Virus record (IMG/VR): IMGVR_UViG_3300027503_000059
Span: 1-23,822 of that record
Reading direction: 5' to 3' (one strand)
Source: a virus
DNA: 23,822 nt
Part shown: positions 2,721 to 21,808 of the stretch, piece by piece
Position numbering within the stretch: position 1 is the first letter of the stretch
How the letters are laid out: every line of letters begins with the position of its first letter
Translations under genes and position numbers: made by a program
The notes under the pieces: model-generated
The model's input: the letters and a program-made list of their open reading frames with translations, nothing else
What the model was told of the DNA's origin: nothing
Databases searched by the model: none

Positions 2721-2728
2721 GGTAATAA

Positions 2729-4233: not shown

Positions 4234-4671
4234 ATGGCAAAATTATATAATCAAAAAACGGTTGCAAGTAATATAGCATCTGTTGGAAATCAAAATATTA
4301 CAGAATTTACCTATAAAGGTTTTTGTTCAGCAGAAACAAAAAAAGGATATAAACTCTATGACATCGATCTTGTTAAACAAGATCTAATTAATCATTTTTA
4401 CATTCGTAAGGGCGAAAAGTTAGAAAACCCAGAATTTGGTACGGTCATTTGGGATTTATTATTTGAACAATTTACAGAAGAAGTAAAAAAATTAATTGCT
4501 AAAGACGTTGAAGAAATTATTAACTACGACCCTAGAATTGCTGTTAATTCAGTAATTGTCGATAGCACAGATCAAGGAATTCGAATAGAAGCAGAGTTAG
4601 TATATCTGCCTTTTAATGTTAGCGAGCGTATGACTTTTGACTTTGACAAGTTAAATTACTCAGTTAACTGA
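4234..4671 (+). CDS. 25: Baseplate wedge / sheath initiator, gp25-like
   Basis: This 145-residue protein belongs to the gp25/GPW family (W-gp25 domain), which starts sheath polymerisation at the baseplate in contractile tails and type VI secretion systems. The typical core is clear: RKGEKLENPEFGTVIWDLLF from residue 58, an amphipathic helix, then NYDPRI at 97-102, and VNSVIVDS plus IRIEAELVYLPF strands. The family's hallmark is the EPR motif (NYEPRI in T4 gp25); here the Glu is replaced by Asp, a conservative change. The length is close to T4 gp25, with a slightly longer N-terminus. The ATG is two bases after the gp5-like stop. The stop codon overlaps a 12-base palindrome at 4660-4671. Confidence 0.93.
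   Translation: MAKLYNQKTVASNIASVGNQNITEFTYKGFCSAETKKGYKLYDIDLVKQDLINHFYIRKGEKLENPEFGTVIWDLLFEQFTEEVKKLIAKDVEEIINYDPRIAVNSVIVDSTDQGIRIEAELVYLPFNVSERMTFDFDKLNYSVN
4660..4671. repeat. Perfect 12-base palindrome at the end of the gp25-like gene
   Basis: TCAGTTAACTGA is its own reverse complement and overlaps the stop codon of the gp25-like gene. It has no loop and no following T-run, so it is not a normal terminator. It could be chance in AT-rich DNA, or a minor RNA structure between two genes of the operon. Confidence 0.35.
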
Positions 4672-4712: not shown

Positions 4713-7700
4713 ATGACAGCTACATCAAGACAAAATAACTTAATTCTCAACGAAGACTGGACTAGAATTTATCAGACATTTAAAAATGCTGACTTCAAAT
4801 CCTACGACTTTGAAAATCTTCGCAGGGTCATTATTGAATATATTCGCGAAAATTATCCTGAAGATTTTAATGATTATATTGAATCAAGCGAATACTTAGC
4901 TTTAATTGACGCCATTGCATTTTTAGGACAGAGTTTAAGTTTCCGTATTGACTTAGCTAGTCGTGAAAATTTTATTGAACTAGCAGAGCGTAAAGAAAGT
5001 GTTTTAAAACTTGCTAGGATGTTGAGTTATACTCCTAAAAGAAATATTCCGTCAAAGGGATTGTTAAAATTTGACACCATATCAACAACTGAAGATATTG
5101 TTGATAGTAACGGAAAAAATTTATCTAAACAAATTATCATCTGGAACGATCCTACTAATTCAAATTGGAGCGAGCAATTCCTATTGGTCCTTAATGCAGC
5201 TATGGCAGACAATACAGAGTTTGGCCGAAGCCAAGGATCTGGTACTATTGACGGTATTAGAACAGAACAATATAGATTAAGAACATCTAACAGAGATATT
5301 CCATTATACACATTTAGTAAAAATGTTGCAGGAAGAAGAATGTCTTTCGAGCTTGTTAGCACAACCTTTAAAGGCAAAGAAGAAATTTATGAAGAAGCAC
5401 CTACGCCTGCTAATCAACTAGGATTTATATATAAAAATGACAATAAAGGACCAGCAAGTTTAAACAATGGTTTCTTCTTAATGTTTAAACAAGGTAGTTT
5501 AGAATTAGCAGATTTCTCAATCGCAGTTCCTACGACAAATGAAAAAGTTTCTATTGACGCCGAAGGAATTAATAACAACGATATTTGGTTATATTCTTTA
5601 AACTCTGTTGGAGCACAAACAACAGAATGGTTGCAAGTTCCAAATTTAATTGGAAACAATATTGCTTATAATAGTTTGGTCAATCAGGTCAAGAACATTT
5701 ATTCTGTTGTAACTAAAGACAAAGACAAAGTTGATTTATTATTCTCAGACGGAGTATACGGAAACTTACCTCAAGGTAATTTTAGAATTTATTATCGTGT
5801 TTCAAATGGTTTGAGTTACTCTATAACTCCTAGCGACATGCGAGGAATCAGCATATCTATACCTTATGTTAATAAATTAGGATCAGCTCATACATTAACA
5901 ATTAGTATGAGTTTAAAATATACCGTATCGTCCTCAACTCCAAGTGAAAGTATTGATAGTATTCGTGCAAATGCACCAGCATCTTATTATACACAAAACA
6001 GAATGATCACAGGCGAAGATTATAATCTTGCGCCTTTAACCAGCAGTCAAGATATTCTTAAAGTTAAAGCAATTAATAGAACATCGAGCGGTATTAGCAG
6101 AAATTTTGATATTATTGATGCCAGCGGAAAATATTCAAGTATTGATGTATTCGCTGACGACGGTTTAATTTATAAAAACGAAGTTGAGACAACATTAGGG
6201 TTTAAATTTACAAATAAGATTGAAATTTATAACTTTATTAGAAATACTATTGAGCCATTAATTGACAGCACTGATGTTTTTAATTTTTATATAACAAAAT
6301 ATACAAAAATTTTGTTTACGGATCCAACATCGGTTTGGAATTCAGTAACCACATCAACTAATAGTTCAACAGGATATTTTATTAGTGGAGTTGACTCGTC
6401 ATTATTAAAAACAGGTGTTTATACAAATAATACTTTGAAATATCTTTTACCTGATTCAATAGTTAAATTTGTTCCGCCCGCCGGCAAAGCATTTAAAAAC
6501 GGAAAACTTGTTACTCAAGATTTAACAGATCCTTTACAAAAATCATATATTTGGTCTAAGGTTGTTAGAGTTGTTGGTGACGGTACAAATGCGGGCCGTG
6601 GAGTATTAAGTACAGGCCTAGGCCCAATTACATTTAGTGATAATATTCCTTCGGGTTCGGTAGCTTTTCAAATAGTACCAAAGTGGGTTTCAAATTTACC
6701 TAATGCATTTGAAACTGAAATGGCAAACCTTGCATTTTCAAATTTAAACTTTGGTTTGCGATACGATATTGAATCTGCCGCCTGGAAAATTATTACAGCC
6801 GCAAATCTAGATTTAATCAATAGTTTTAGTCTTGGTAAAGCAGGCGACACATCAAACTCTGGAATTGATTCTTCATGGATCATAGCGTTTGTTAAAGAAC
6901 CAGACAAGTATGTTGTCCACGTTAGAAGCATGGAATATATTTTTGCTAGTATTAGAAAAAATCGTTTCTATTTTGATTCAAATCAAAAAATCTACGATAG
7001 CAAAACAAACAAGGTTGTTAAAGATCAAATCAAGGTATTAGGAATTAATACCGACAACGGTCTTTTAGATTATCTAAAACAAGATCTTGTTTTTGAAATT
7101 AGTGATAGTATTCGTTTTGAAGATGGATATCAAAGCACCGATGCAATTAAAATTGCGTTTGCTGATTCTGACGACGACGGAGTTATTGATGACCCAGACG
7201 AGTTTATTAGAATTGTTGGAGAAGATTCAGCAAATAAATTTTTGTTTTTCCAAGAAACGGTCGACGACACCGGAGCAAAAATATTTCAATATTTCGATAA
7301 TACAAACAATGACATTGTATTAGCGGCTAAAGAAATTGACGTCAAGGTTACAGATTATACCGATGGCCAACTTGTATATTTTTATGACATTGCTGAAGAT
7401 GTTGTAAAAATGGTTGATAGAACAACAAATACATTTGTTCTTCAAAGTAATTTTAGAGCAAACATTGGTAGGGCTGGAATTAAATTCCAATATCTGCACC
7501 ATGCAAATGTTGACCGCCGTATCGATCCAAGCGTAAGTAATATTATTGATGTGTATCTATTAACACGTTCTTATGACACAGATTTTAGAAATTACTTGCA
7601 AGGTGTGTTAACAAAAATGCCCGAACCGCCAACAACAGAAAGTTTAAGAATTGCATTTGGCGGAAACTTGAGTGCAATTAAATCTATAAGCGATGATATT

Positions 7701-8120
7701 GTATATCATCCAGTTTCATATAAAGTGTTATTCGGAAAAACCGCAGATGAAAAATTACAAGCAATATTTAAAATTGTTAAAAACTCATCAAAGACAATCA
7801 ACGATAACGATTTAAAGGTTAGAATTATTGCAGCGATCAATGAATTTTTTGATTCGGCAAATTGGGACTTTGGAGATAAATTTTATCTTTCAGAATTAAT
7901 AACCTATGTGATTAATTCAACAGCGCCTGACATTACTAACATGGTTATTGTACCAAGACAACAATCTCAGGTGTTTGGTAGTCTGTTTGAAATTCAAAGT
8001 AGAGCAGATGAAATTTTTGTAAGCGGTGCTACCGTAGATGATATAGAAATAGTAACATCTATTAATGCAGCAGAAATTGGTGCAATTTCTGGAACAATTA
8101 TTACTTCAACGAGTACTTAA
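4713..8120 (+). CDS. 6: Baseplate wedge protein, gp6-like (enlarged)
   Basis: This 1135-residue protein matches the T4 gp6 / baseplate-J type wedge family, which forms the continuous ring at the core of the baseplate. Recognisable segments are the N-terminal YLALIDAIAFLGQSLSFRID with ENFIELAERKESVLKLARML (about residues 68-110), FSDGVYGNLPQGNFRIYYRV at about 344, and IRANAPASYYTQNRMITGED at about 417-436, the typical gp6/gpJ block. Near the C-terminus are AAINEFFDSANWDFGDKFYL and FGSLFEIQSRADEIFVSGAT. T4 gp6 has 660 residues, so extra domains are inserted in the second half (about 450-950). These include an aspartate-rich DxDDDGxxDDxDE loop at residues 818-830 that may bind calcium. The ATG has AGGA at 4702-4705 and follows a candidate late promoter. 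Confidence 0.92.
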   Translation: MTATSRQNNLILNEDWTRIYQTFKNADFKSYDFENLRRVIIEYIRENYPEDFNDYIESSEYLALIDAIAFLGQSLSFRIDLASRENFIELAERKESVLKLARMLSYTPKRNIPSKGLLKFDTISTTEDIVDSNGKNLSKQIIIWNDPTNSNWSEQFLLVLNAAMADNTEFGRSQGSGTIDGIRTEQYRLRTSNRDIPLYTFSKNVAGRRMSFELVSTTFKGKEEIYEEAPTPANQLGFIYKNDNKGPASLNNGFFLMFKQGSLELADFSIAVPTTNEKVSIDAEGINNNDIWLYSLNSVGAQTTEWLQVPNLIGNNIAYNSLVNQVKNIYSVVTKDKDKVDLLFSDGVYGNLPQGNFRIYYRVSNGLSYSITPSDMRGISISIPYVNKLGSAHTLTISMSLKYTVSSSTPSESIDSIRANAPASYYTQNRMITGEDYNLAPLTSSQDILKVKAINRTSSGISRNFDIIDASGKYSSIDVFADDGLIYKNEVETTLGFKFTNKIEIYNFIRNTIEPLIDSTDVFNFYITKYTKILFTDPTSVWNSVTTSTNSSTGYFISGVDSSLLKTGVYTNNTLKYLLPDSIVKFVPPAGKAFKNGKLVTQDLTDPLQKSYIWSKVVRVVGDGTNAGRGVLSTGLGPITFSDNIPSGSVAFQIVPKWVSNLPNAFETEMANLAFSNLNFGLRYDIESAAWKIITAANLDLINSFSLGKAGDTSNSGIDSSWIIAFVKEPDKYVVHVRSMEYIFASIRKNRFYFDSNQKIYDSKTNKVVKDQIKVLGINTDNGLLDYLKQDLVFEISDSIRFEDGYQSTDAIKIAFADSDDDGVIDDPDEFIRIVGEDSANKFLFFQETVDDTGAKIFQYFDNTNNDIVLAAKEIDVKVTDYTDGQLVYFYDIAEDVVKMVDRTTNTFVLQSNFRANIGRAGIKFQYLHHANVDRRIDPSVSNIIDVYLLTRSYDTDFRNYLQGVLTKMPEPPTTESLRIAFGGNLSAIKSISDDIVYHPVSYKVLFGKTADEKLQAIFKIVKNSSKTINDNDLKVRIIAAINEFFDSANWDFGDKFYLSELITYVINSTAPDITNMVIVPRQQSQVFGSLFEIQSRADEIFVSGATVDDIEIVTSINAAEIGAISGTIITSTST
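7164..7202 (+). other. Calcium-type Asp-rich loop inside the gp6-like protein
   Basis: Residues 818-830 of the gp6-like protein read DSDDDGVIDDPDE. This fits the DxDxDGxxDxxD/E pattern of EF-hand-like, dockerin-type or thrombospondin-type-3 calcium loops. It lies in the extra segment absent from T4 gp6. Calcium binding is inferred from the pattern alone. Confidence 0.45.
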
Positions 8121-8122
8121 GA

Positions 8123-11100
8123 ATGGCAAAGTTTTTTCCAAAAAGTCAATTACCTATTAGAAAGTCATCTGATTTATTACCAAAGGTATTTCAAACAGAT
8201 GCTAATGATAAATTTTTATCCGGCGTTTTAGATCCGTTACTGCAACCTGGTACACTAGAGAAGAACGTAGGATATGTTGGGCGTAGATACGGTAAAACAT
8301 ACAACGGCTCAGACATTTATTTAGATACCGACGCTACTCTTAGAAGTAGATATCAGTTGGAGCCTGGCGTTGTTCTTAAAAAAGATGGTAAGACACAAAA
8401 TTTTTATGACTTCATTGACTTTAAAAATATTTTAAAATATTTTGGAAATAATGAAGATAGAGATGATCTAATTGATCAACACCAGCACTATAGTTGGAAC
8501 CCTCCTGTTGACTGGGATAAGTTTATTAATTATAGAGAATATTTTTGGATGCCAAGCGGTCCTCCACCAATTAGAATTTTAGGCCAAAGTTCTTCTGTAA
8601 TAAGCACATATAGAGTTAAGCTCGGAGAAGCGTCTTCTTTTATTTTTTCTCCAGACGGCTATACAAACAATCCTAGAATAACATTATATAGAGGACAAAA
8701 ATACAAATTTATTGTAAATGTTCCGGGTAACGGATTTGTTATTAGAACATCATATGATACTGGTTCATTGACATTTAATCCTGATTTATTCTATCCTCAA
8801 GGATCTATTGTTGTATTCAATGGTTCTGTATGGAAAGCAAAAGTTCCAGTATCTCCGGCCGACGGTAGCACAATAACAACAGAATCTCAAGACTGGGAAT
8901 TTGTTGAAATTGTAAATGCAAATTCAGCAGCACTTGACTACACTAAAGGAATTACAAATTTTGGCATTGAGAATGGAACACTAACATTTGATGTGCCTTA
9001 CGATGCGCCGGATATTCTTTATTATCAAAGTATTACTGATCCAAATAAATTTGGTCAGTTTATTATTTCCGACATTGAAGAAAATTCAAAAATTAATATT
9101 AACGATGATATTATTGGAAAGACAACATATACAAGTAGCAACGGAATTGAACTAAGCAATGGTATGATTGTTAATTTTGGCGGTGTTGTTACCCCAGAGA
9201 AATATTCAAAAGGAAATTGGTTAGTTGAAGGTGTTGGTAAAGCAATCTCATTGACCAACTTTGATGATTTAGTTGTTCCTGTATTAACATCAGATGTTCC
9301 AGAAGTATTATTTGATAATGAAGGTTTTGACACAGCACCTTTTGATGATGCAAGCTCGTATCCGGGAACAAAAGATTATATCACAATAGCTAAAAGTAGT
9401 AAAGATTTAAATCCTTGGTCACGATATAATCGTTGGTTTCATAGAAGTGTATTGGAACTTTCTTTTAAATTATCAGGAGAAGATTTTTACCACGACGAAG
9501 CAGCTAGAGCAAAACGTCCTATTATAGAATTTTTACCAAATTTAAAATTATACGAACACGGAGTATTTGCTAAGGAAACCGTAGATTACATTGACACATT
9601 TACGTCAGACGTATTTTCTAAAATTGAAGGAAGTACTGGTTATAGTATTGACGGTGAGCCGTTGTTTAACGGAGCAAGAATTCTTGTAACGGCCGACACT
9701 GATAGTTTAGCTAATAATAAAATTTATCAAGTTAAATTCTTCACTCAAAACGGTCAAAATCAAATCACCTTAATAAAAGTTGATGATACTGAATCCATCA
9801 TTGGAGAAACCTTATTAGTTCGCCGTGGAAAGAAAAATAAAGGAACAATGTTCTACTATGATGGAACCGCTTGGTTAAGTAGCCAAGAAAAAACTAAAGT
9901 TAATCAAGCACCTTTATTTGATGCATTTGATGAAAATGGTGTAAGTTTTTCTGATAAAGATACGTATCCAGTTTCAACATTCCGCGGTACTAAAATTTTA
10001 GCATACAAAGAAAGCACAGGAGTTGTTGACCTAGAACTTGGATTTCCAATTAGCTATCTTAATATCAGCAACGTTGGAGATATAAGTTTTGAATTTGTAT
10101 GGGATATAGAATCCTTTACCTATGAAGTTTTAAGAAAATCATATTCAAAAAATATTAATACTGGTTTCTGTAAATTTAACCTAACAGACGAATATGTTAA
10201 TCATTGGATTGAAACTGAACAAAAATATCTACAACCAATCATTGATTCGCAGGTAATTACCACAGCAACTGACACGGTTTATTTTAATACCGTTGATTGG
10301 TTTAAAGTAACTGATCAAGACGAAATTTATTTTTATAAGAACGGAGAGCGTTATACAGAATCATATACAAGACAAGGTGGAAATTTTATTTTTGCTACAC
10401 CGTTTGCTGTAAAAGATGTTCTTGTAATAAAAATATTTTGTAATTTAATTCCAGAAGAAGGATATTATGAAATTCCTGTAGGTTTGGAAAAAAATCCGTT
10501 AAACAACGAACTAACAGATTTTACGTTTGGACAAGCAGTTGATCATATTTCGTCTGGATTAGAATTTTACAATGGATTCTCTGGACTTGTTGTAGGAAAT
10601 AATTCTTTAAGAGACATTCATGGATTCCAGGCATATACTAAGAGATTTTTAAAACATGAAAGTGTGGCACCTGTTGCATTAACATTGCTAGTTGATAAGC
10701 AGGTTAATTTAATTAAAGCTCTCCGATATGCTAAAAAGTCTTATACTGATTTTAAACATAATTTTATTAAAATTTCTGGAGAATTAGATTTTGATGGAGA
10801 TATTCCAAAGCTAGTTGACAATATTATTAATGAATTAACAAGAGGTAAAAATCCTTCAAGCCCGTTTGTAAATTCTGATATGATCGGTAGCGGAGCATAT
10901 ACAAATTTAATTTACGAAGTTGAAGATCCAGATATTAACACATTTGTTATTTCAGATAAATTTGATTTAAAAACTTTAAGTAATCGAGCTGTCTACCTAT
11001 ACATTAATAATCAACAATTAATTAATGGATTTGATTACGAATTTAATAGTGACTTTTCTTTTGTTAATATTTTAAAAACACTTAATGTTGGAGACATACT

Positions 11101-14100
11101 TGAAATTAGAGAATATGTTTCTTCAGGATTTAATCATATCCCTCAAACACCGACAAAGATTGGATTGTTTAAAAAGTTTGTACCTGAAAAATTCTTAGAT
11201 GACACCTTTGTTGAACCAAAATATATGATTCAAGGACACGACGGTAGCCTTACAACAGCATTTAATGACTATCGAGACGATGCGCTTCTTGAATTAGAAT
11301 TAAGAATTTTTAATAACATCAAAAAAGAATATGATGAAAATATATTTGATATTGATGCAACCGCTGGCGGATATTATAAGACTGGAATATTTGAATACAA
11401 TCAAATTATACAAATAAACACACAAGAATTTTTAAAATGGATTGCAGATACAAATATCGATTATGTAAGTAATAGCTATTTTGACAGCGAAAATTCTTTC
11501 ACTTATACATATTCTAATATGTCTGACCCAGCCGGATTAGAAAATTTACCAGGTTGGTGGAGAGGAGTCTACAAGTATTTTTACGATACAGATCGTCCAC
11601 ATCGCTGCCCATGGGAAATGTTAGGATTTTCTATTAAACCGACATGGTGGGAAAGTGAATACGGACCTGCACCATACACTAGAAACAATTTACTTTTATG
11701 GGAAGACCTGGCTGCCGGCCTAATTAGACAAGGTCCAAGAGCAGGTGTTCATAAACGATATGTAAGATCTACTTTGTTAACACACATTCCTGTAGATGGA
11801 GATGGTAAACTATTAAGCCCTCTAGATTCAAATCTAGCACAAAATTTTTCTTTGATTAATAATCAAGGGGATTTTAACTTTGGCGATATTTCCCCTGCAG
11901 AACATGCATGGTATAGCAGTAGTGAATATCCATTTGCAACAATTATTGGAATGGCATTGTTAAGACCTTTTGAATTTGTAGGCAAAAATTTTGACAATTC
12001 AAAAATTGTAAGAAACAAATTAAATCAATTAGTACATACCGATACAGGTATCTTTGTTAAAGTTGAAGATTTAGTTGGATCAAGTTCTGGCGGATATTTA
12101 ACCAGCGGATTAGTTTCTTATATTGTAGATTATTTAAAGAGCCATAATATTAATGAAAATGTGTTGCAGGAAAAATTAGATGAAATCGATGTTTACCTAA
12201 CACATAGATTATCTGGATTTGTTGATCAAACACAACAACGATTTATTTTAGATTCAAAAAATCCTAATTCTACTTCGGCAAATATTTTTGTTCCGGTAGA
12301 AAATCAGGAAATTTATTATAATGTTAGTGCTCCAATTGCAAGTATAATTTATAGCGCGGTCATTGTTGAAAAAATGACCAACGGTTGGAAAATTAGCGGC
12401 TATGACTTTTTAGATCCGCATTTTACATATTTTGCTCCGGTGATTAGTCAAATAGATCCTCTTATTTCAGTTGGCGGAGTTTCTGAAAATTTTGTTAATT
12501 GGACAGAAGATAAATTTTATGGAAATGGTGTAGTAGCAAGATATAATAATGAATATTATAGAAGTGTTAAAAGCCATCAAAGCGGATCCACATTTGATTT
12601 AACCCTGTGGAAAAAACTTCCAGACCTTCCTAAGAAAGACGACGTTCAAGCATTTAAGAGAAGAACATTTAACACCATAAGAGAACAAAAAATAAGTTAT
12701 GGAACTACCATCGGCACAATCCAAGGAGTAGTTGATTTCTTATTAGGTTATGAACAATATCTAATTTCTAAAGGATTTAAATTTGATAGATACGATACAG
12801 ACAGCAAGGTAACTCAAGATTGGTTCACTAGTGCTAAAGAATTTATGTACTGGACACAGCATAATTGGGCTCCTGGATCTTTATTAACTTTAAGTCCTGC
12901 TGCTGAAAAAATGGATGTATCTTATCCAATTGGTGTTCCTGATAATCTATTAGATAGCTTTTATGAATATCAAGTGTTTAGAGGTGACGGTCAGCCATTG
13001 ACTCCTAATTTCTTAAACATAAAAAGAGATTTTCAAAATATAACTATTGAAACTACAAACACAGCAGAAGGAATTTATTTCTTTAAAGCTCACTTAGTGT
13101 TAAAAGAACACGTTGCTATTTTCGATGACCGAACCGTTTTCAATGATGTTATCTATGATAAAACAACAGGCTATCGTCAAGAAAGAGTTAAGGCAAGAGG
13201 TTTTAGAACCGTTGACTGGGACGGTGATTATACAAGTCCCGGATTCTTATTTGATAATGTTAATATTATAGCATGGCAACCTTATACTGATTACAGATTG
13301 GGTGATATAGTTAATTACAAAAGTTATAACTGGGTAACAAAATCTAATCACACATCTACCGATCAATTTGTAAATGCATTCTGGACTAAACTTGATTCAA
13401 CACCGAACAAGAGATTAGTTCCAAACTTTGATTATAGAATTAATCAATTTGAAGATTATTATAATCTTGATGCAGATGGTCTTGGGTCAAGCCAACGAGA
13501 TCTTGGTCGACACGCCATCGGTTATCAAACTAGAGAATACTTACAAAATCTTGCAGAAGATGACGTAACACAATTTCAGTTATATCAAGGTTTTATTAGA
13601 GAAAAAGGTACATTAAATGCCGCTGTTAAAATATTTGATAAACTAAGCAAAACAACAGAAGATAGTATTGTTTTAAACGAAGAATGGGCGTTTAATGTTG
13701 GTACCTTAGGCGGAGTAGACGAGTTAAATGAAGTTGAATTTGCATTTAATAAAGACTCCTTACAAGTAAATCCTCAGCCAATGATATTTGTGTCATCGGC
13801 TTATACAGGAGTAATACTTGATCAATATCTAAGAATCCCTGCATCGGACTTTACAAATGCTCCGTCGCCTTTTACAACTTCGATTATTCCTAAAACAGAT
13901 TTTGATCAATTTCAGTCTGCGGGTTACGTAAAACTTGACCAAGTTGATTTTGTTATTAAGAATAGATCAGATTTAGAAACATTAGATATTACACAAGTAA
14001 AAGACGGCGACCATTTTTGGATTACATTCGATAATTCAGCATGGACGGTTTTAAGATTTACTAGAAAGCCATTATTAACTTTAATTTCAGCAATTAAAAC

Positions 14101-17100
14101 AGGTACAACAATTGAAATTACATTTAATCGTAGACACGCTTTTATTGTTGACGATTACATTGGCATTAACGATGTTCCTAACCTAACCGGCTTTTATAAA
14201 ATTAATGAAGTAACTCTTACTTCTGTTATCATTGCCTGCGCATCTGATGCTAAAGATCCATTAGTTGATACAAGTACATTAATTCGTGTTTACGGATTAG
14301 ACAATGTTAGATTTTCTTCTGGATCGGATATAGATCAAGAATATGTTGCATTATTGCCTAACAATTCAAAATTGTGGTTTGATTCTAATGATAACGGACT
14401 ATGGGAAGTTGTACAAAAAAATAAAGTCTTTAGCTATAAATCCTTAACTGATTATGGAACTACCGTGCCCGAAGGAACAGGACATGCAGTTTGTTATGTT
14501 GAAAGATTACAACAAACTATTACAAGCATGCCTTCAAATTCAATGGTTCTTGTTTATGTTGAGGGACCTACAGGTTTAAAAATTAAACAGACATTTGCCC
14601 CTGAGCCTGAACTATATTTGTTGCTTTCTAATTCTTTTGGAGAAGAACTTGCAGTAAGTCCTGACGGACATTTCTTAGCAGTTGGATGTCCTAGAGCATC
14701 GGGCGTGCCTTCAGCATATATTGGTGTTTTTGATCCTACAGCAAATTATGAAATAGGTGATGTTGTTGAATATGCTGGAAAATTGTGGAAGGCTACAACA
14801 GCAGTAGTAGGAGACGGCAGTACAATTGATATTCAAAGTAATGATTGGGAGCCTACATCTTTATTAACTTATGATCCAAATTTTGGCCGTGGCGAAGGAT
14901 TTAGAAATCAAGGAGCTGTTTCGATTTATGTTTGGAATAATCAAAACTGGTCATTAACAACTACACTAGTAAGTCCAAGACCTGCGTTTGATGAAAATTT
15001 TGGATCTAATATTTCTATTTCAAAATCTGGTTCAGATTATTGGATGGCTGTTTCAGCTCCTGGTTCGTTAGATAGCAGGGGTAGAATTTATCTTTACAGG
15101 TATAATAGTGAAACTTTGGCCTGGGAACAACACGAAAATAACAATTATATTGGAGTATATGTTTCAGATCCTGCTAGACAATATCCAAAAGGATCAATTG
15201 TATGGTGGAATAATTCCTACTGGAAAGCGGTTGAGGATACCAACGGTGACGGTAGTACCATTAGTATCAGTTCACCCGACTGGATAAAAATTGATGACAT
15301 ATCTAGTCAATCATCTTTACCAACAAACGTTTCTATTGAAGATGACGGATCAACAATTTCGTCTGGATTATTAAGTGAAAGTGATCTAGCAGAACTTACA
15401 AAACAAGGTGATATGTTTGGTTCTGCAATGGCAATGAATAAAGATGGATCTATATTAGTTGTCGGTGTTGCTGATAGTGATGGTATTTACTTTGCAAATT
15501 ATAAAGGAATCTGGTCAGCCACCCAAGAATATATTGCAGGAGATGTTGTAAAATATCAAGGTTACTATCATAGACTAACAAATGTTCGTCCTGAAGATCC
15601 TGTAGATTCAGCAACCTATAGAAGTTTTGGAGAATACCCAGACGATGGATTGCCATGGACTAACGTGGGCGACAGCACTATTCCGTATTCAACAGGTAAA
15701 GTTTATATCTACCAAAGAGATAGTAATAGTGTTTACAAACTAAAACAAACAATAACTGCTGGATCAATTGGATTATTTGATGATACTGGCAATAACGAAT
15801 CTATCACCGTTGGTGATAAATTTGGATTCTCTGTTGATGTTGATGCAACAGGTCAACACATTGTTATTAGTGCTCCTCAGGCAGATATTAATTTACAAAA
15901 TCAAGGTGCAGTATATTATTTCTCTGCAACTAGTTTAACAAATCCAGAATGGAGATTAAAACAAAAATTAGAAAGTTTTGAAGAATATAATAATTTGTTG
16001 TTTGGTTCTGATGTATCTATTAGTTCTGGAACAGAAAGAATAGTTGTTGGCGCAAAAAATGCTCCATACAAATCTTATGCATATTTTGAAACAGGAACTA
16101 CATTTGATAAAAATTCAACAATATTTTCAACATTTAACGGTTATTCGGGACAGGTATATTCTTTTGAAAGAGTTAGTGGAAAATATTTCTTAACAGAAAA
16201 ATTAGAAGCAGACGTAACCAATAATGAATCTTTTGGTTATGCCATTGATGCAACATCCGATGTTATTGTAGTTGGTTCTCCTAACTACAATAACGGTGAC
16301 GGTTTAGTTAGAACATTTAGAAAAGATACTTCTGTTAAATCTTTAAAAACATTAGCCGTTCAAGAACAATTAATTGATATTTCTAAAATTAAAAATATTT
16401 CTTTAATTGATGCAGATAAAAATGTTAAGATAAGCGACATTGATTTTATTGATCCAATTAAATTAAAAATATTAGGACTTGCAGAACAGGAACTTAATTT
16501 TAAAACACCGTACGATCCAGCAATTTATACCAACGGAACAGAAGAAACCGTAGTAGATCCTGACGCAGCTTGGTTTACAAAGAACGTTGGAAAACTATGG
16601 TGGAATTTAAACACAGCTAAGTGGTTGTACTATGAGCAAGGCGATATTGCTTATAGAAACGGTAATTGGGGACAATTAGCTAAAGGATCTACTATTGATG
16701 TTTATGAATGGGTTGAAACTACTCTATTACCTAGCGAATGGAGTGCCCTTGCTGACACCACTGCAGGATTAACTGAAGGAATCTCTGGACAGCCATTATA
16801 TCCTAATGATGATGTATATTCTGTAAAACAATTTTATAATGAAATTACACAACAGGTAACAGAAATAAAATATTATTATTGGGTTAAGGGCAGCACCGTT
16901 GTCCCACAAAAAGTTAATAGAAAATTGTCAGCAGGAGAAGTTGCAGCGTTGATTGAGACGCCAATTTCAAGCGGATATCCAATATTAGCATTGTTAGATA
17001 GTGATAAAATTTTAGCATACAATTTTAATAAATTTGTAACTTCTGGAAGAGCATTATTAAACATTGAATTCTACACAAATGAATCTTCAGTTAATCCTGT

Positions 17101-20100
17101 GCATAGAGAATATGTATTATTAGCTGAAGGCGTTGCAGACAACCTTCCTCCAGAAACTTTAGAGACTAAATGGATCGATAGTTTAGTTGGATTTGATCAA
17201 GCAGGTAATACCGTGCCTGATCCTAAACTTTCTACTAAAGAAAAATACGGATTATCATTCAGACCTCGTCAGAGTATGTTTGTAAATCGTTCTGAAATTT
17301 TAAAAATTGTTATTACTAATATTAATTCATTATTACTAACAAATCCATATTCTGAAATTTTAAATTTTGATAATTTAAATTCAACAGATTTAGAACCAGA
17401 TGAAAAATTAAACGAATATGATGTAGCAGTAGATACAATAACTGACTTAGAACAAATTGGTGCAATTCGTGTTCGCCAAGCAGTATTACAAGCAAATATT
17501 GTTAACGGCGAAGTTGATACAATTGATATTGTAGATTCTGGATTTGGTTATAAAAATGCTCCGTACATTGAAATACAAGGTGACGGAACAGGAGCCAGGG
17601 CTTATATTACAATTGATAATCAAGGTAGAGTAAGTAGTGTTAAAATTCAAACAACCGGAAGAAAATATACAACCGCCACCGTTAAAATTCGAGAGTATTC
17701 AGTATTAGTTAGAACTGATGAAACAATTAATAATTTCTGGAGTATCTATTCTTGGGATCAACAAAGAAGAATTTTCTATAAGAGTAAGTCTCAAGGTTAT
17801 GATGTAAGAAACTATTGGTCATATATCGATTGGTGGAAACCAGGATACTCAACCTCAACTAGAATATTATATGAAGTTCCAAGTTTGTATTTAGAACCAA
17901 CAATATATACTGAGCCAGGAGATTTAATTAGAGTTAAAGAATATGCTAACGGCGGATGGGCAGTACTTGAAAGAACAGCAGACGGCTCTGGTGAAATTTT
18001 AGGAAAATATCTGTTAGTTGCTAGACAAAACGGAACAATTGAATTTAAAGATTCTCTTTATAATACTAAAACAACCGCTATTGGTTTTGATAATGTTGGA
18101 TATTATGATACAGCATTATATGACTTAGAACCTTCAAGAGAATTAAGGATTATTTTAAATTCTATTAAAACTGATTTATTTGTTGGAGATCTTAAAGTTG
18201 AGTGGAATAAATTATTCTTCACTTGTGTAAGATATGCTTTCTCAGAAAATCAGCCAATTTTCTGGGCATTTAAAACAAGTTTTATTAATGCATTACATAA
18301 TGTTGGATCGTTAGAACATAAAGTTTCTTACAAGAACGATAACCTTCCTGCGTATCAAAAATATCTTGAAGAAATTAAACCATACAAAACTTCTATTAGA
18401 GAATATACAAGTCGTTATGTAAATCAAGAATCAACAAATACAGATATTTTAGATTTTGATTTACCTCCCGTATATTCCACACGCGATAATAAAATTGTTC
18501 CAGTGAATAATGGATACAATTTATTTGATCAGTATCCATGGAAGTGGTGGTATGACAACAAAGGATTCTCAGTAGTATCTATTGAAGTTTCATATGCAGG
18601 TGCAGATTATACATCTGTTCCTACCGTTCTTATTGAGGGCAACGGAACAGGAGCAAAAGCTAAAGCATATATTTCAAATGGTAAAGTTTCTGGTATCACA
18701 ATGGTTGATATTGGAGAAGGGTATACTGAAACACCAACAATTACGTTAGTTGGTGGCAACGGTTCGTCTTTATTAAAAGCAAAAGCAATTGCAATTTTAG
18801 GTCAAACAAAAGCAAGAACATTTAATCTTGGAATTAAGTTTGACAGAATTTCTAAAGAAGGCATTTATAACGCATTTACGCATTCTCAAACATTTACTGC
18901 ATCAGGACGTACTGCGGTTTTTGATTTAGCATTTGCGCCAACAAGAGATAAATCGAAAATTACTATTGTTAAAAACAAACAATTAATATTGAATAATGAA
19001 TATAGTTTATCATTGTTCAAAACATCTACCGATGATTATAAGATCCTAAAAGGTAGATTGATTTTTGTTGACCCGCCAGCTAAAGATGATGTTATTACAA
19101 TAACATATGAAAAGAATGATGAATTGTTAGATGCTGTTAACAGAATTAACAAGTATTATTCACCAACTAGCGGAATGATTGGAAATGAAGTTGGACAATT
19201 AATGACCGGTATTGATTTTGGCGGAGTTCAAGTTCAAGGAACAACATTTGATGTAACTGGCGGATGGGACGCTCTTCCGTGGTTTACTGATAGCTGGGAC
19301 AGCGTTGACTCTAACGACGATTATTATGTAATTGTTGACGGTAGTACCTCTGGGATTGAACTACCAGAAGCTCCTGTAGAAAATCAAATAATTACAATTT
19401 ATCTACAAAGAGCAGGAACATCTAAACCGATTAGAATTGACGATCCACACTTTGATCATGCCGGCGACTCGGCATTAGTAACAAATTCTAATGCTCTTAT
19501 GCCAACGTTTGTTGGAGATGGTTCTACAAAAATTGTTTCTATTGAAAATTATTTCCAAACATATGCAGGCGATGTATTAATTTTCCGTCCTGCAGAAAGC
19601 GACGGATCTGTTAATATTACAGATACAAACCTTCTCGATTCTAAGATTAGTGGCGGAACATTAGCATCAATGAGCGGTGCATATTCAACTGCTACAGGAA
19701 TGACAGCAGAAGAAATTGTAATTAGCGGTGGCGCATTTAATACGCCAGATCATACACCTGCTCCTGAAGAAAATGTACCGGGACAAATACTTGATAGTGT
19801 TTCTATTAAGGTGTTCCAAACTACAATCAGTGGTGCTGCAACTATTCAAAATAAAGTTGTTATTTCAGATGGAATTACTTCTCGATATGCCATTGATTTA
19901 ACTATAATAGAAGAAGCATCAATATTGGTCTATGTAGATAAAATTTCCTATGTTTCATTTGGAGATAGCACAACCAGTTATAGCATAGATTTTACAACCA
20001 ACGAAATTGTGTTTAATACTCCACCTGCGCTAGGCTCTACAATTGAGATCATTGCAATTGGTCGTGGGGGTATTGCATTATTAGATTTCCAAGAGTTTGT

Positions 20101-21808
20101 TGCAGATGGCAATACAAGATTGTTCTTAACAAAAGCAGATTATTCTTTAACACAAAATATTTTAGTAACCGTTGACGGTCATCAAGTCGACACAGGATTT
20201 ACTAATAGTACTATTGTTGCTGAAGATACAGGAACAACTATTGAACCTGGAAAAACAATGGTAGAATTTGGATTAACACCAGATGCAAATTCAATTATTA
20301 AAATCATTTGTTTGGGTTCAACATCAAATGTTGATAGTTCTGGATTGTCTGTAATTCGTGTTAATAAACAAATTTTAACATATGAGGGATCAACACGATC
20401 TTTTATGCTAGACAAATTTGTAGATCCATCTAGAAGTTCAGCAATTGCGTCTATGGTTGTTTTGTTAAACAATAAAAAATTAAAAGGCCCAGATACTTAT
20501 TATAGAATATACGACGGATCAAATAACGAAGTTGAAGTAGGTGTAGATCCAACATCTGTGGTAACATCAGTTGATGTTAGAGTTTATATTAATAATATAT
20601 TACAGCCATTTGTTACGGCATATATCTATGACGGCACTACCGGAACCGTGGTTGTTAATACAGAATATCTAGAATTGCAAGATGTTATTAGAATAGAAAT
20701 TATTAATAATGCAGAATATTCTGTTACAGATAACATTTTACAAATTTCTGATTTAGTAACCTTAGTAGACGAAGATCAAATAGAAGTAACTTGGTTTAGC
20801 GAATATCCAACGTTTGACATTGTTTCTGACGTTCATTCAGGAGGAAAAGTTCAATATCAATTGAATAGAGCCCCATTAGATTCTCATTATGTATGGGTTT
20901 ATAAGAATGGCGAGAGACTAGTTCAAGGAAAAGAATTTGTTGTTTCAACACCAAGGAATGTTGTATATCTGAATATTCCTTCTTTGTTAACTGACAAAAT
21001 TGAAATTATGGAATTTGGTAATAATGTTTATAAAACTCCAAGAGCTTTTGAAATGTATAAAGACATGTTTAACGTAACTCATTATAAGCGTTATGCTATT
21101 AATGATGTTCAGTTATCAAAAGAATTAAATTATTACGATACTACTATTGAAGTTAATGATGCTTCGGCTCTTGACGAACCTAATATGTCTAAAAATATTC
21201 CTGGAGTGGTAACAATCAACAAAGAACGCATCGAGTTCTTAACTAAATCCGGAAACGTGTTAGGACAATTAAGAAGAGGAACGTTAGGATCTTCAATCGG
21301 TCAAACTTATCCTGCAGGAACCCCAGTAATCAGTGCAGGTGTTGATGACATTATTCCTTATATTGATTCTCAAGAAAAAGAAGAGTTTGTTAGCGACGGA
21401 AGTACATTGTTGATTGGACCATTATCTTTTGTTCCAACAAAATCAACAAGATCTAGCTTTACCAGAAAAACAATTCCAGAAGATTTTGGAGCCTGCGATC
21501 AAGTAGAAATATTTGTTGCAGGCAAAAGATTAAGAAAAGATCAGTTATCTGTTTATAACGAATCTTTAGGATCAGTAAGTCCATCGGCAGATGAAATTTT
21601 AGAAGCAGAATTTTCTGTAGACGGAGCAACACCTTATATAAGATTAACTAAGCCAGCAACTGAAGGTACACGAATTTTAATAATTAGAAAAGTTGGTAGA
21701 TTATGGTACGAGAGAGCTGAAACTACAGCAAGTAGAGGTATTACGCTGCTTGATAACAATACAGCTATTGCTCGTTTCATTGATCAAAAGCCAACGGAAT
21801 TGCCATAA
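8123..21808 (+). CDS. Giant baseplate-associated structural protein, multi-domain (4561 aa)
   Basis: This single uninterrupted frame encodes about 4561 residues, roughly 0.5 MDa, with no frameshift or stop. N-terminal blocks typical of giant marine T4-like structural proteins are RYQLEPGVVLKKDG at about 75-88 and HYSWNPPVDWDKFINYREYF at about 123-142. A further block is KYFYDTDRPHRCPWEMLGF near 1150. The middle (2141-2735) carries six FG-GAP propeller blade motifs with Trp-rich modules between the first three. Gly/Tyr repeat blocks lie at 3131-3189 and 3484-3559, with EIKPYKTSIREYTSRY between them (from about 3417). From about 3587 to the end are beta-sandwich-like modules, then YKRYAIND and PGVVTINKERIEFLT. 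No catalytic motif, signal peptide or membrane helix is visible. It starts two bases after gp6, where T4 has gene 7. Orthology to gp7, which is far smaller, is only positional. The stop is followed by another in-frame TAA. Confidence 0.9.
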   Translation: MAKFFPKSQLPIRKSSDLLPKVFQTDANDKFLSGVLDPLLQPGTLEKNVGYVGRRYGKTYNGSDIYLDTDATLRSRYQLEPGVVLKKDGKTQNFYDFIDFKNILKYFGNNEDRDDLIDQHQHYSWNPPVDWDKFINYREYFWMPSGPPPIRILGQSSSVISTYRVKLGEASSFIFSPDGYTNNPRITLYRGQKYKFIVNVPGNGFVIRTSYDTGSLTFNPDLFYPQGSIVVFNGSVWKAKVPVSPADGSTITTESQDWEFVEIVNANSAALDYTKGITNFGIENGTLTFDVPYDAPDILYYQSITDPNKFGQFIISDIEENSKININDDIIGKTTYTSSNGIELSNGMIVNFGGVVTPEKYSKGNWLVEGVGKAISLTNFDDLVVPVLTSDVPEVLFDNEGFDTAPFDDASSYPGTKDYITIAKSSKDLNPWSRYNRWFHRSVLELSFKLSGEDFYHDEAARAKRPIIEFLPNLKLYEHGVFAKETVDYIDTFTSDVFSKIEGSTGYSIDGEPLFNGARILVTADTDSLANNKIYQVKFFTQNGQNQITLIKVDDTESIIGETLLVRRGKKNKGTMFYYDGTAWLSSQEKTKVNQAPLFDAFDENGVSFSDKDTYPVSTFRGTKILAYKESTGVVDLELGFPISYLNISNVGDISFEFVWDIESFTYEVLRKSYSKNINTGFCKFNLTDEYVNHWIETEQKYLQPIIDSQVITTATDTVYFNTVDWFKVTDQDEIYFYKNGERYTESYTRQGGNFIFATPFAVKDVLVIKIFCNLIPEEGYYEIPVGLEKNPLNNELTDFTFGQAVDHISSGLEFYNGFSGLVVGNNSLRDIHGFQAYTKRFLKHESVAPVALTLLVDKQVNLIKALRYAKKSYTDFKHNFIKISGELDFDGDIPKLVDNIINELTRGKNPSSPFVNSDMIGSGAYTNLIYEVEDPDINTFVISDKFDLKTLSNRAVYLYINNQQLINGFDYEFNSDFSFVNILKTLNVGDILEIREYVSSGFNHIPQTPTKIGLFKKFVPEKFLDDTFVEPKYMIQGHDGSLTTAFNDYRDDALLELELRIFNNIKKEYDENIFDIDATAGGYYKTGIFEYNQIIQINTQEFLKWIADTNIDYVSNSYFDSENSFTYTYSNMSDPAGLENLPGWWRGVYKYFYDTDRPHRCPWEMLGFSIKPTWWESEYGPAPYTRNNLLLWEDLAAGLIRQGPRAGVHKRYVRSTLLTHIPVDGDGKLLSPLDSNLAQNFSLINNQGDFNFGDISPAEHAWYSSSEYPFATIIGMALLRPFEFVGKNFDNSKIVRNKLNQLVHTDTGIFVKVEDLVGSSSGGYLTSGLVSYIVDYLKSHNINENVLQEKLDEIDVYLTHRLSGFVDQTQQRFILDSKNPNSTSANIFVPVENQEIYYNVSAPIASIIYSAVIVEKMTNGWKISGYDFLDPHFTYFAPVISQIDPLISVGGVSENFVNWTEDKFYGNGVVARYNNEYYRSVKSHQSGSTFDLTLWKKLPDLPKKDDVQAFKRRTFNTIREQKISYGTTIGTIQGVVDFLLGYEQYLISKGFKFDRYDTDSKVTQDWFTSAKEFMYWTQHNWAPGSLLTLSPAAEKMDVSYPIGVPDNLLDSFYEYQVFRGDGQPLTPNFLNIKRDFQNITIETTNTAEGIYFFKAHLVLKEHVAIFDDRTVFNDVIYDKTTGYRQERVKARGFRTVDWDGDYTSPGFLFDNVNIIAWQPYTDYRLGDIVNYKSYNWVTKSNHTSTDQFVNAFWTKLDSTPNKRLVPNFDYRINQFEDYYNLDADGLGSSQRDLGRHAIGYQTREYLQNLAEDDVTQFQLYQGFIREKGTLNAAVKIFDKLSKTTEDSIVLNEEWAFNVGTLGGVDELNEVEFAFNKDSLQVNPQPMIFVSSAYTGVILDQYLRIPASDFTNAPSPFTTSIIPKTDFDQFQSAGYVKLDQVDFVIKNRSDLETLDITQVKDGDHFWITFDNSAWTVLRFTRKPLLTLISAIKTGTTIEITFNRRHAFIVDDYIGINDVPNLTGFYKINEVTLTSVIIACASDAKDPLVDTSTLIRVYGLDNVRFSSGSDIDQEYVALLPNNSKLWFDSNDNGLWEVVQKNKVFSYKSLTDYGTTVPEGTGHAVCYVERLQQTITSMPSNSMVLVYVEGPTGLKIKQTFAPEPELYLLLSNSFGEELAVSPDGHFLAVGCPRASGVPSAYIGVFDPTANYEIGDVVEYAGKLWKATTAVVGDGSTIDIQSNDWEPTSLLTYDPNFGRGEGFRNQGAVSIYVWNNQNWSLTTTLVSPRPAFDENFGSNISISKSGSDYWMAVSAPGSLDSRGRIYLYRYNSETLAWEQHENNNYIGVYVSDPARQYPKGSIVWWNNSYWKAVEDTNGDGSTISISSPDWIKIDDISSQSSLPTNVSIEDDGSTISSGLLSESDLAELTKQGDMFGSAMAMNKDGSILVVGVADSDGIYFANYKGIWSATQEYIAGDVVKYQGYYHRLTNVRPEDPVDSATYRSFGEYPDDGLPWTNVGDSTIPYSTGKVYIYQRDSNSVYKLKQTITAGSIGLFDDTGNNESITVGDKFGFSVDVDATGQHIVISAPQADINLQNQGAVYYFSATSLTNPEWRLKQKLESFEEYNNLLFGSDVSISSGTERIVVGAKNAPYKSYAYFETGTTFDKNSTIFSTFNGYSGQVYSFERVSGKYFLTEKLEADVTNNESFGYAIDATSDVIVVGSPNYNNGDGLVRTFRKDTSVKSLKTLAVQEQLIDISKIKNISLIDADKNVKISDIDFIDPIKLKILGLAEQELNFKTPYDPAIYTNGTEETVVDPDAAWFTKNVGKLWWNLNTAKWLYYEQGDIAYRNGNWGQLAKGSTIDVYEWVETTLLPSEWSALADTTAGLTEGISGQPLYPNDDVYSVKQFYNEITQQVTEIKYYYWVKGSTVVPQKVNRKLSAGEVAALIETPISSGYPILALLDSDKILAYNFNKFVTSGRALLNIEFYTNESSVNPVHREYVLLAEGVADNLPPETLETKWIDSLVGFDQAGNTVPDPKLSTKEKYGLSFRPRQSMFVNRSEILKIVITNINSLLLTNPYSEILNFDNLNSTDLEPDEKLNEYDVAVDTITDLEQIGAIRVRQAVLQANIVNGEVDTIDIVDSGFGYKNAPYIEIQGDGTGARAYITIDNQGRVSSVKIQTTGRKYTTATVKIREYSVLVRTDETINNFWSIYSWDQQRRIFYKSKSQGYDVRNYWSYIDWWKPGYSTSTRILYEVPSLYLEPTIYTEPGDLIRVKEYANGGWAVLERTADGSGEILGKYLLVARQNGTIEFKDSLYNTKTTAIGFDNVGYYDTALYDLEPSRELRIILNSIKTDLFVGDLKVEWNKLFFTCVRYAFSENQPIFWAFKTSFINALHNVGSLEHKVSYKNDNLPAYQKYLEEIKPYKTSIREYTSRYVNQESTNTDILDFDLPPVYSTRDNKIVPVNNGYNLFDQYPWKWWYDNKGFSVVSIEVSYAGADYTSVPTVLIEGNGTGAKAKAYISNGKVSGITMVDIGEGYTETPTITLVGGNGSSLLKAKAIAILGQTKARTFNLGIKFDRISKEGIYNAFTHSQTFTASGRTAVFDLAFAPTRDKSKITIVKNKQLILNNEYSLSLFKTSTDDYKILKGRLIFVDPPAKDDVITITYEKNDELLDAVNRINKYYSPTSGMIGNEVGQLMTGIDFGGVQVQGTTFDVTGGWDALPWFTDSWDSVDSNDDYYVIVDGSTSGIELPEAPVENQIITIYLQRAGTSKPIRIDDPHFDHAGDSALVTNSNALMPTFVGDGSTKIVSIENYFQTYAGDVLIFRPAESDGSVNITDTNLLDSKISGGTLASMSGAYSTATGMTAEEIVISGGAFNTPDHTPAPEENVPGQILDSVSIKVFQTTISGAATIQNKVVISDGITSRYAIDLTIIEEASILVYVDKISYVSFGDSTTSYSIDFTTNEIVFNTPPALGSTIEIIAIGRGGIALLDFQEFVADGNTRLFLTKADYSLTQNILVTVDGHQVDTGFTNSTIVAEDTGTTIEPGKTMVEFGLTPDANSIIKIICLGSTSNVDSSGLSVIRVNKQILTYEGSTRSFMLDKFVDPSRSSAIASMVVLLNNKKLKGPDTYYRIYDGSNNEVEVGVDPTSVVTSVDVRVYINNILQPFVTAYIYDGTTGTVVVNTEYLELQDVIRIEIINNAEYSVTDNILQISDLVTLVDEDQIEVTWFSEYPTFDIVSDVHSGGKVQYQLNRAPLDSHYVWVYKNGERLVQGKEFVVSTPRNVVYLNIPSLLTDKIEIMEFGNNVYKTPRAFEMYKDMFNVTHYKRYAINDVQLSKELNYYDTTIEVNDASALDEPNMSKNIPGVVTINKERIEFLTKSGNVLGQLRRGTLGSSIGQTYPAGTPVISAGVDDIIPYIDSQEKEEFVSDGSTLLIGPLSFVPTKSTRSSFTRKTIPEDFGACDQVEIFVAGKRLRKDQLSVYNESLGSVSPSADEILEAEFSVDGATPYIRLTKPATEGTRILIIRKVGRLWYERAETTASRGITLLDNNTAIARFIDQKPTELP
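8792..8905 (+). repeat. Trp-rich module A1 of the giant protein
   Basis: Residues 224-261 contain GSIVVFNGSVWKA, then DGSTI and a closing DWEFV. The pattern hydrophobic-G-x-I/V-V-x-x-x-G/N-x-x-W-K-A recalls small chitin- or glycan-binding modules (CBM5/12-like). It shares the DGSTI and final DW with copies A2 and A3 far downstream. The binding role is inferred. Confidence 0.55.
12515..12619 (+). repeat. Trp-rich module B1 of the giant protein
   Basis: Residues 1465-1499 contain GVVARYNNEYYRSVKSH and end FDLTLWKKL. It shares the opening V-V-x-x-x-x-x-x-Y/W pattern with the A modules, but has the H-x-S/T ... F ... W-x-K-L ending seen again in B2. Confidence 0.5.
13274..13393 (+). repeat. Trp-rich module B2 of the giant protein
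   Basis: Residues 1718-1757 contain YRLGDIVNYKSYNWVTKSNH and end FVNAFWTKL. The YxxGDxVxYxxxxWxxxxxH layout is the clearest carbohydrate-module-like pattern in the chain. The ending pairs with module B1, about 220 residues upstream. Confidence 0.55.
14729..14854 (+). repeat. Trp-rich module A2, inserted after propeller blade 1
   Basis: Residues 2203-2244 contain NYEIGDVVEYAGKLWKATTA, then GDGSTI and the closing DWEP. The copy is closely related to A1 and A3 at protein level, but its DNA has diverged, so the duplication is old rather than recent. It lies between the FG motif of blade 1 and that blade's outer strand GAVSIYVW. Confidence 0.6.
15155..15292 (+). repeat. Trp-rich module A3, inserted after propeller blade 2
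   Basis: Residues 2345-2390 contain YPKGSIVWWNNSYWKAVED, then GDGSTI and the closing DWIKI. This is the same subtype as A1 and A2. It follows blade 2's outer strand GRIYLYRY and precedes blade 3 at residue 2432. Confidence 0.6.
15506..15667 (+). repeat. Trp-rich module C, inserted within propeller blade 3
   Basis: Residues 2462-2515 contain YIAGDVVKYQGYYHRLTNV and end DGLPWTNV. It has the GDVVxYxGxY core of the other modules, but a longer second half without the DGSTI segment. It lies between the blade 3 FG motif and that blade's outer strand GKVYIYQR. Confidence 0.5.
17513..17689 (+). repeat. Gly/Tyr (GxGY, GDGTGA) repeat block 1
   Basis: Residues 3131-3189 read as a half-repeat pair: SGFGYKNAPYIEIQGDGTGA, then a variable strand, a turn with QGRV, and VKIQTTGRKYTTATVKI. 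The same plan, G-x-x-Y-x-x-x-P-x-hydrophobic then G-x-G-T-G-A-x-A, is repeated in block 2. These are probably small beta modules. Their function is unknown. Confidence 0.6.
18572..18799 (+). repeat. Gly/Tyr (GxGY, GNGTGA) repeat block 2
   Basis: Residues 3484-3559 contain AGADYTSVPTVLIEGNGTGA, a KVSGI turn, and then a second copy, IGEGYTETPTITLVGGNGSS, ending KAKAIAIL. Both halves match block 1, about 350 residues upstream, so the unit occurs at least three to four times in the giant protein. Confidence 0.65.
18881..21808 (+). other. C-terminal beta-sandwich-like module array of the giant protein
   Basis: Residues 3587 to the end show a loosely repeated plan: an opening F-x-x-x-G-x-T/S-x-x-F-x-L, then a strand with V-x-V-x-x-x, a tyrosine-bearing turn, and a closing I/V-x-F-x-x-P-P-x-x-x-x-x-I-x-I. 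Clear copies start at about residues 3587 (TFTASGRTAVFDL, closing LIFVDPPAKDDVITITY), 3940-3983 (closing EIVFNTPPALGSTIEIIAIG) and 3989 (FQEFVADGNTRLFLT). The terminal part has FVSDGSTLLIGPLSF. This looks like a chain of small all-beta domains, as in elongated tail or fibre proteins. Domain limits are estimated. Confidence 0.5.

Follow-up and report, generated by a model that had tools for sequence, protein, structure and literature searches.

A Predicted Seven-Bladed FG-GAP Propeller with Nested CBM5/12-Like Modules in a Giant Baseplate-Region Protein of a Large Phage

Introduction

What a beta-propeller carrying carbohydrate-module-like inserts might do inside a giant virion protein is the question raised by a 23,822-nucleotide stretch of viral DNA (IMG/VR record IMGVR_UViG_3300027503_000059, positions 1 to 23,822), referred to here as the window. 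The initial annotation, made from the sequence of the window, described positions 14543-16327 as six FG-GAP blades with Trp-rich segments in the gaps between them, placed this arrangement within a phage baseplate protein, and proposed that it serves as a multivalent host-surface binder. Two protein families provide the points of reference. The FG-GAP blades of integrin alpha subunits possess calcium-binding D-x-D-x-D-G loops, and the integrin alpha-I domain is itself an insert between two blades. In ChiA1, Trp687 is the exposed aromatic residue used in chitin binding.

Genomic Context of the Giant Protein

An open frame on the plus strand (8123-21808) encodes a giant protein of 4,561 aa, assigned to PHROG 10938 (virion structural protein), and the studied region (14543-16327) corresponds to its residues 2141-2735. 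The gp6-like gene (4713-8120) immediately precedes it, and before that comes a gp25-like gene (4234-4671); these two labels are based on matches to 'baseplate wedge subunit' PHROGs together with gene order. A hub or lysozyme-like gene lies farther upstream. In the gene order of T4, the position directly behind gp6 is that of gp7 (BW3), and it is this position that the giant gene occupies. Gene order and the neighboring PHROGs thus support the placement within a baseplate protein, and we infer that the giant protein is located at the baseplate periphery. Profiles of the scaffold on both sides of the slot described below matched no baseplate chain in the PDB, a miss that is no proof; the scaffold before the slot retrieved CBM chains only, and that after it none. 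An open frame of 116 aa runs opposite to the gp6-like gene (5027-5377, minus strand) and is probably due to chance.

The identical full-length giant protein was recovered from four longer contigs, one of 219,444 bases, and hence the window represents a fragment of a large phage. Within the six contigs searched, all matches to FG-GAP_2 (E ≤ 0.001) were confined to this giant frame. A search for the psbA family, as an indicator of a cyanophage host, gave no match in any of these six contigs, each of which may be incomplete. Origin from a bacterial genome was rejected, as a single scan of bacterial and archaeal genome contigs found no relative.

Architecture of the Propeller

An FG-GAP-like pattern matched the whole 4,561-aa protein exactly six times, at residues 2172, 2293, 2432, 2567, 2627, and 2704, precisely where the initial annotation had placed its blade motifs. 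In 2,000 shuffles of the region, the pattern, which was composed after the motifs were known, gave a mean of 0.0045 matches and a maximum of one. Independent support was provided by the Pfam family FG-GAP_2 (PF14312), which matched the region in the window (E 1.2e-19; score 70.6 bits, cut-off 23) and was matched in all 38 rows of an alignment that includes the window (E 0.1 or better); FG-GAP_3 (PF13517) had no match in the window. The motifs are spaced by 121, 139, 135, 60, and 77 residues, confirming the approximate doubling remarked upon for the first three gaps.

Structure prediction of the region had been set beforehand as a check, and it yielded a propeller in which the modules own separate strands. 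The AlphaFold2 model, covering residues 2046-2770 and based on the 38-row alignment (the window and 37 relatives), has a mean pLDDT of 81.9 and a pTM of 0.83. A propeller of four-stranded blades, probably closed, is predicted, with seven sets of strands representing seven blades, the first of which has no FG-GAP motif. Its best match among solved folds is the head of integrin alphaL (5e6u; Z 26.9, rmsd 3.0 over 360 residues), integrin heads aligning over approximately positions 56 to 698 of the model (residues 2101 to 2743), and the seven-bladed WD40 propeller 5yzv follows with Z 25.6 (282 of 284 residues aligned, beginning at model residue 57). The propeller of the initial annotation was therefore upheld by both the model and the solved folds, but its count of six blades was rejected, because seven-bladed propellers could be aligned over almost their full length and the strands of the extra blade precede the first FG-GAP motif. 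Foldseek, ranked by E-value, put large multi-propeller chains first (rmsd above 20 A) and integrins next (TMq up to 0.40, rmsd of 8 A or more), these poor global scores being attributable to the big inserts. At the level of sequence, the propeller region used as a single query against solved structures returned weak, unrelated matches only, and the whole protein none; the profile of the region retrieved CBM chains, one unrelated chain, and weak rows of integrin alphaM (E 0.5 or worse). In a library of predicted viral structures, in which many of the top rows are nameless, the matches bearing names include FG-GAP proteins from large DNA viruses and from a few phages.

The inserted unit, comprising the seven-bladed propeller and three modules, spans 14423-16354 on the plus strand (residues ~2101-2744) as defined by fold alignment and the slot edges, its C-terminal edge being uncertain by a few residues. 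Blade 1, which lacks the motif, is found at 14423-14605 (residues ~2101-2161) according to the model strands and the WD40 alignment. The remaining blades were delineated by combining the model with the motif pattern. Strands A and B of blade 2 (14636-14701; motif at 2172) lead into module 1 (14711-14860; residues 2197-2246), which occupies the B-C loop of this blade as judged by HMM, profile, model, and fold, and strands C and D follow at 14900-14980 in the model (residues 2260-2286). Blade 3 (14990-15133; residues 2290-2337, motif at 2293) is separated from strands A and B of blade 4 (15407-15481; residues 2429-2453, motif at 2432) by a loop containing module 2 (15143-15301; residues 2341-2393), identified by HMM, profile, model, and comparison of relatives. 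The divergent module 3 (15491-15679; residues 2457-2519), assigned by HMM, profile, and model, lies in the B-C loop of blade 4, the strands C and D of which occupy 15689-15766 in the model (residues 2523-2548). Blade 5 (15812-15982; residues 2564-2620, motif at 2567), for which Pfam adds evidence, blade 6 (15995-16213; residues 2625-2697, motif at 2627), and blade 7 (16220-16366; residues 2700-2748, motif at 2704) complete the propeller, and the last strand of blade 7 overlaps the start of the conserved flank. All of these features are encoded on the plus strand.

The claim that the modules sit in gaps between blades was consequently borne out for module 2, between blades 3 and 4, but not for modules 1 and 3, which are within blades. 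In propellers, B-C loops and inter-blade loops lie on one face. Given this rule and the order of strands in the model, all three modules probably leave a single face, that of three neighboring blades.

The likeness to integrin alpha, the head of which is a seven-bladed FG-GAP propeller like that of the window, raises the notion that the propeller itself recognizes a host protein as integrin heads do their ligands, and that the modules are not the recognizer. The fold match is consistent with this, as is the occurrence of FG-GAP proteins in other phages. ORF127 of Vibrio phage nt-1 has five stretches of FG-GAP repeats of the kind seen in the window, but it is a stand-alone protein of 402 aa with no CBM5/12 match at E 0.1, whereas the propeller of the window is embedded in 4,561 aa and bears loop modules. 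The 'Hemagglutinin' of Atu_ph07 (A0A2L0UZX4; 393 aa) and H6WG31 of cyanophage S-TIM5 (407 aa) have predicted folds that match the propeller, the likeness being one of fold only. However, the blades are conserved and not hypervariable, and inspection of the six FG-GAP motif strings by eye revealed no clear integrin-type calcium loop, the nearest being that of the blade at 2567 (VDVDATG); recognition by the propeller is thus the least probable of the readings weighed here. The phage protein differs from integrin alpha further in its low identity (14-19% among the integrin matches listed), and in having CBM5/12-like modules in place of the alpha-I domain. Sinorhizobium phage Phosso also has an FG-GAP-rich giant protein, distinct from the one compared with the window below: CDS 108 (locus L097, 2764 onward; 11,079 coding bases) shows 15 such stretches within its N-terminal 1,325 residues, which may form a tandem of several propellers; it has no CBM5/12 match at E 0.1.

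Identity and Fold of the Modules

The three Trp-rich segments had been described as glycan-module-like, and both Pfam and a family HMM agreed. CBM5/12 (PF02839) scored 44.9 bits with the whole protein against a cut-off of 26.2, and 30.8 bits with the propeller region, and it was matched in 37 of the 38 alignment rows (E 0.1). An HMM whose training set was modules 1 and 2 across the family, with the window's own copies among them, located modules 1 and 2 at residues 2201-2245 (1.5e-21) and 2344-2390 (4.6e-19), and, for module 3, only residues 2461-2484 (3.1e-4). It also detected a strong module far from the propeller (8774-8902, plus strand; residues 218-260, E 7.6e-15) and two weak ones at 12500-12598 (residues 1460-1492, 0.11) and 13274-13351 (residues 1718-1743, 0.025); each of the three has HMM matches at the corresponding site in those of the listed IMG/VR relatives that cover these parts.

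Modeled alone, module 1 attained a pLDDT of 94.6, and it is predicted to fold independently. Its profile matched the chitin-binding domain 2rts (E 3.2e-7), chitin deacetylases, phage tail fibers and spikes, and 1ed7 in the PDB. Designed TIM barrels were matched as well (E 2e-4 to 3e-3), the similarity lying in the final ten positions of the profile; this is noise, and module matches with similar E-values, such as that of the module 1 profile to 7b5h (4.6e-4), are therefore not strong alone. The profile of module 2 found All3316/Cis13 (7b5h) as its first and sole sensible match (6.2e-4), and that of module 3 likewise placed All3316/Cis13 first (1.2e-3), together with chitin deacetylases. By fold, the best 50 matches listed for module 1 (Z 3.8-7.4) comprise 37 chitinases or chitin deacetylases and 13 chains of phages or injection systems; none had a Z of 8 or more, and the best Foldseek E-value was 1.2e-3 with none below 0.001, scores that are modest for so small a domain.

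The alternative that the modules are integral propeller strands was rejected for module 1, which is predicted to fold by itself, and for module 2, which some relatives lack. Sequence and fold are shared with the CBM5/12 chitin-binding domains (2rts, 1ed7, and the chitin deacetylases), but the modules of the window are nested in a propeller, and modules 1 and 2 are without the expected aromatic residue. Specifically, the stretch that separates the anchor from the last Trp, where the chitin-binding Trp of ChiA1 should lie, is free of W, Y, and F in both. Across relatives, an aromatic is present in this stretch in 10 of 17 module 1 rows and 3 of 15 module 2 rows, and missing from 7 and 12, respectively; the count pertains to modules 1 and 2 only, and includes row L012, which was anchored too early and still has an aromatic without the anchor.

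A CBM5/12-like domain, recognized by fold, also occurs in virion or virion-like proteins, namely the tail spike of phage Milano, Cis13 of Anabaena, and gp23/gp24 of T4. In these, however, it is part of a capsid protein or of the N-terminal portion of a spike or fiber-like protein, and not of propeller loops.

Conservation and Loss of the Modules Among Relatives

A first scan of environmental virus contigs returned 136 relatives of the propeller region. All three modules were kept in 38 of 38 rows, as judged by filled alignment columns, a figure biased by the fact that two of the six search peptides lay inside modules. A fairer count came from a second scan, for which the peptides were taken from outside the propeller; it recovered 465 relatives of the segment formed by blades 5-7 and the flank. 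Eighty were retained, every one with at least three FG-GAP-like motifs. At 76 of the loci the slot is covered in full, and here the HMM matched the position of module 1 in all 76 and that of module 3 in 65. Among the 11 loci in which it missed module 3, the alignment of one (L143) shows the module to be present; L111, L134, and L160 were judged by HMM.

Module 2 is absent from 11 of the 76 loci (L144, L151, L153, L171, L173, L175, L176, and L180-L183), as indicated by HMM spacing in all 11 and by alignment in five. The 11 represent six distinct sequences and four spacing types, with six loci identical over the region. Blades 3 and 4 are retained in all five aligned loci, and module 2 is accordingly regarded as an insert, being absent while its neighboring blades stay. 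In a tree of the flank behind the propeller, built from three cultured rows and the 76 rows (window included) that remained of 147 once near copies had been removed, the six distinct sequences without module 2 nest within a 42-row branch (support 98/99), the other 36 rows of which fall outside that set; label counts on this tree serve for comparison against the outgroup only. If the outgroup roots the tree, such nesting favors loss over primitive absence, and the pattern fits one to three losses of module 2. Other differences in loop size were also observed, with an extra insert of ~90 residues between blades 4 and 5 in L144 and L176, and variations in the L009 group (at the module 2 site), L080 (blade 3), and L079 (blade 7).

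Over seven pairs chosen by hand, with L021 used twice, 19 of 21 module comparisons were computable and gave dN/dS values between 0 and 0.21; the scaffold before the slot gave 0.046 to 0.091. In both of the L021 pairs, module 2 had values of 0.20-0.21 compared to 0.09 for the scaffold, and in the pair L001/L006 modules 1 and 2 were 80% and 85% conserved as opposed to 93% for the whole propeller. The mean column entropy of the modules (1.25-1.46) is in the range of that of blade segments (1.00-1.50). As judged from dN/dS, the modules are under purifying selection that mostly resembles that on the scaffold.

A Variable Slot in the Giant Proteins of Cultured Jumbo Phages

The giant proteins of five cultured jumbo phages, RaK2, PA5oct, Atu_ph07, Phosso, and SCTP-2, share with the window a conserved scaffold on both sides of a slot. 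The match to the window runs up to residues 1885-1970 and resumes at residues 2729-2773. Between these points, the slot has a length of ~240 residues in RaK2, 320 in PA5oct, 420 in SCTP-2, and 1,500 in Atu_ph07 and Phosso, compared to ~850 in the window. With E-values calculated for five sequences, the scaffold matches strongly behind the slot (domain E 1.1e-23 to 1.2e-10), and its match just before the propeller is weak, the best domains having E-values of 0.0012 (SCTP-2) and 0.0033 (PA5oct), with a value of 0.041 for the PA5oct piece adjoining the empty site; the slot edge before the propeller is thus no more than suggestive. Unlike the window, none of the five giant proteins has a match to FG-GAP at E 1, and CBM_5_12 was below its cut-off in four of them and without a match in RaK2. 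In Atu_ph07 and Phosso (L081 and L084), the slot, at residues ~1,660-3,200, is filled with ~1,500 residues rich in GxGY-type repeats, and segments similar to these repeats match residues 3481-3563 of the protein in the window.

A slot that accepts almost anything might simply be filled with bulk or stiffening material, of which the propeller and its modules would be one example. The variation of slot content among phage groups, and of extra inserts among relatives, would agree with such a module-tolerant spacer. A spacer would not, however, be expected to show dN/dS values well under 1, nor to match module 1 in every full-slot locus and module 3 in most of them, and this explanation is considered quite improbable.

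Proposed Function

The balance of the evidence gives roughly even odds to the proposal that a seven-bladed FG-GAP propeller, set in a variable slot and nesting three modules of the CBM5/12 fold, acts as a docking and bridging platform at the baseplate periphery. The unit would dock and bridge proteins, the partners being fibers or neighboring parts of the wedge, and the modules would serve either as clamps, like the chitin-binding-like domain of the T4 capsid, or for docking, as similar domains do in some tail spikes. Residues 27-71 of the Milano tail spike match the fold of module 1 (Z 7.2, rmsd 1.4 over 45 residues), and the N-terminal portion of the spike that contains them is described by the authors as tail-binding (PMC10811340). 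Residues 38-88 of All3316/Cis13 are matched by the profiles of modules 1-3 and by the fold of module 1; the N-terminal domains of Cis13 are reported to bind the baseplate, and residues 38-88 belong either to that part or to an intermediary domain (PMC8894136). For the T4 capsid, a bridging or clamp role of the chitin-binding-like domain is reported (PMC3185693).

The principal competitor is that the modules bind a polysaccharide of the cell surface or of particles, with the propeller merely presenting them as a multivalent glycan adhesin. The modules are indeed CBM5/12-like by both sequence and fold, chitin-binding domains being equally close to module 1 by way of 2rts and the 37 chitinases and chitin deacetylases among the best 50 matches listed; the aromatic count for module 1 across relatives (10 of 17 rows) is in keeping with such a role, and arrays of modules in companion proteins would raise avidity. 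Against this, modules 1 and 2 of the window lack the aromatic at the expected site of the chitin-binding Trp, there is no sign of diversifying selection, module 2 is missing from some relatives, and docking or bridging is the described role of some of the module's phage counterparts. Glycan adhesion is consequently held to be possible yet unlikely, and the multivalent host-surface binder of the initial annotation was not sustained, given the missing aromatics, the purifying selection, and three kinds of phage or phage-like relatives described as docking or bridging. Because of the same absence of aromatics in the window, low dN/dS, and phage-side relatives with such described roles, docking or bridging is rated as more probable than glycan adhesion.

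The companion proteins themselves suggest an extension of the docking platform. CBM_5_12 matches (E 0.001) number 18, 16, 16, 17, 3, and 19 in contigs G001 to G006, respectively, all of which may be fragments and the first and last of which carry the same giant protein. The three contigs inspected each encode two companion giant proteins that begin with seven or eight CBM5/12-like modules; the regions concerned are L094 (G001:C1:97000-116500), L095, and L096. It is conceivable, if improbable, that the module-bearing face of the propeller constitutes a homotypic docking hub. Modules of the fiber-like companions would then contact those on the propeller and elsewhere in the giant protein, and so hold the companions at the baseplate.

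Concluding Remarks

The nested arrangement of propeller and modules was not found in the phage record collection, the single scan of bacterial and archaeal genomes, or literature searches, and a survey of jumbo phages contains neither the word FG-GAP nor propeller (PMC7824862). The layout pointed out at the outset looks both real and unusual. Its parts are known; their nested combination in a giant protein of the baseplate region is new. The layout joins two known building blocks of virions, and it recurs in environmental virus contigs of uncultured large phages. It also cautions that a tail protein of a phage may be labeled CBM5/12 and still not bind sugar. The propeller has the appearance of a plug-in scaffold, the loops of which gain and lose small modules, such that the periphery of the baseplate would evolve with its core undisturbed.
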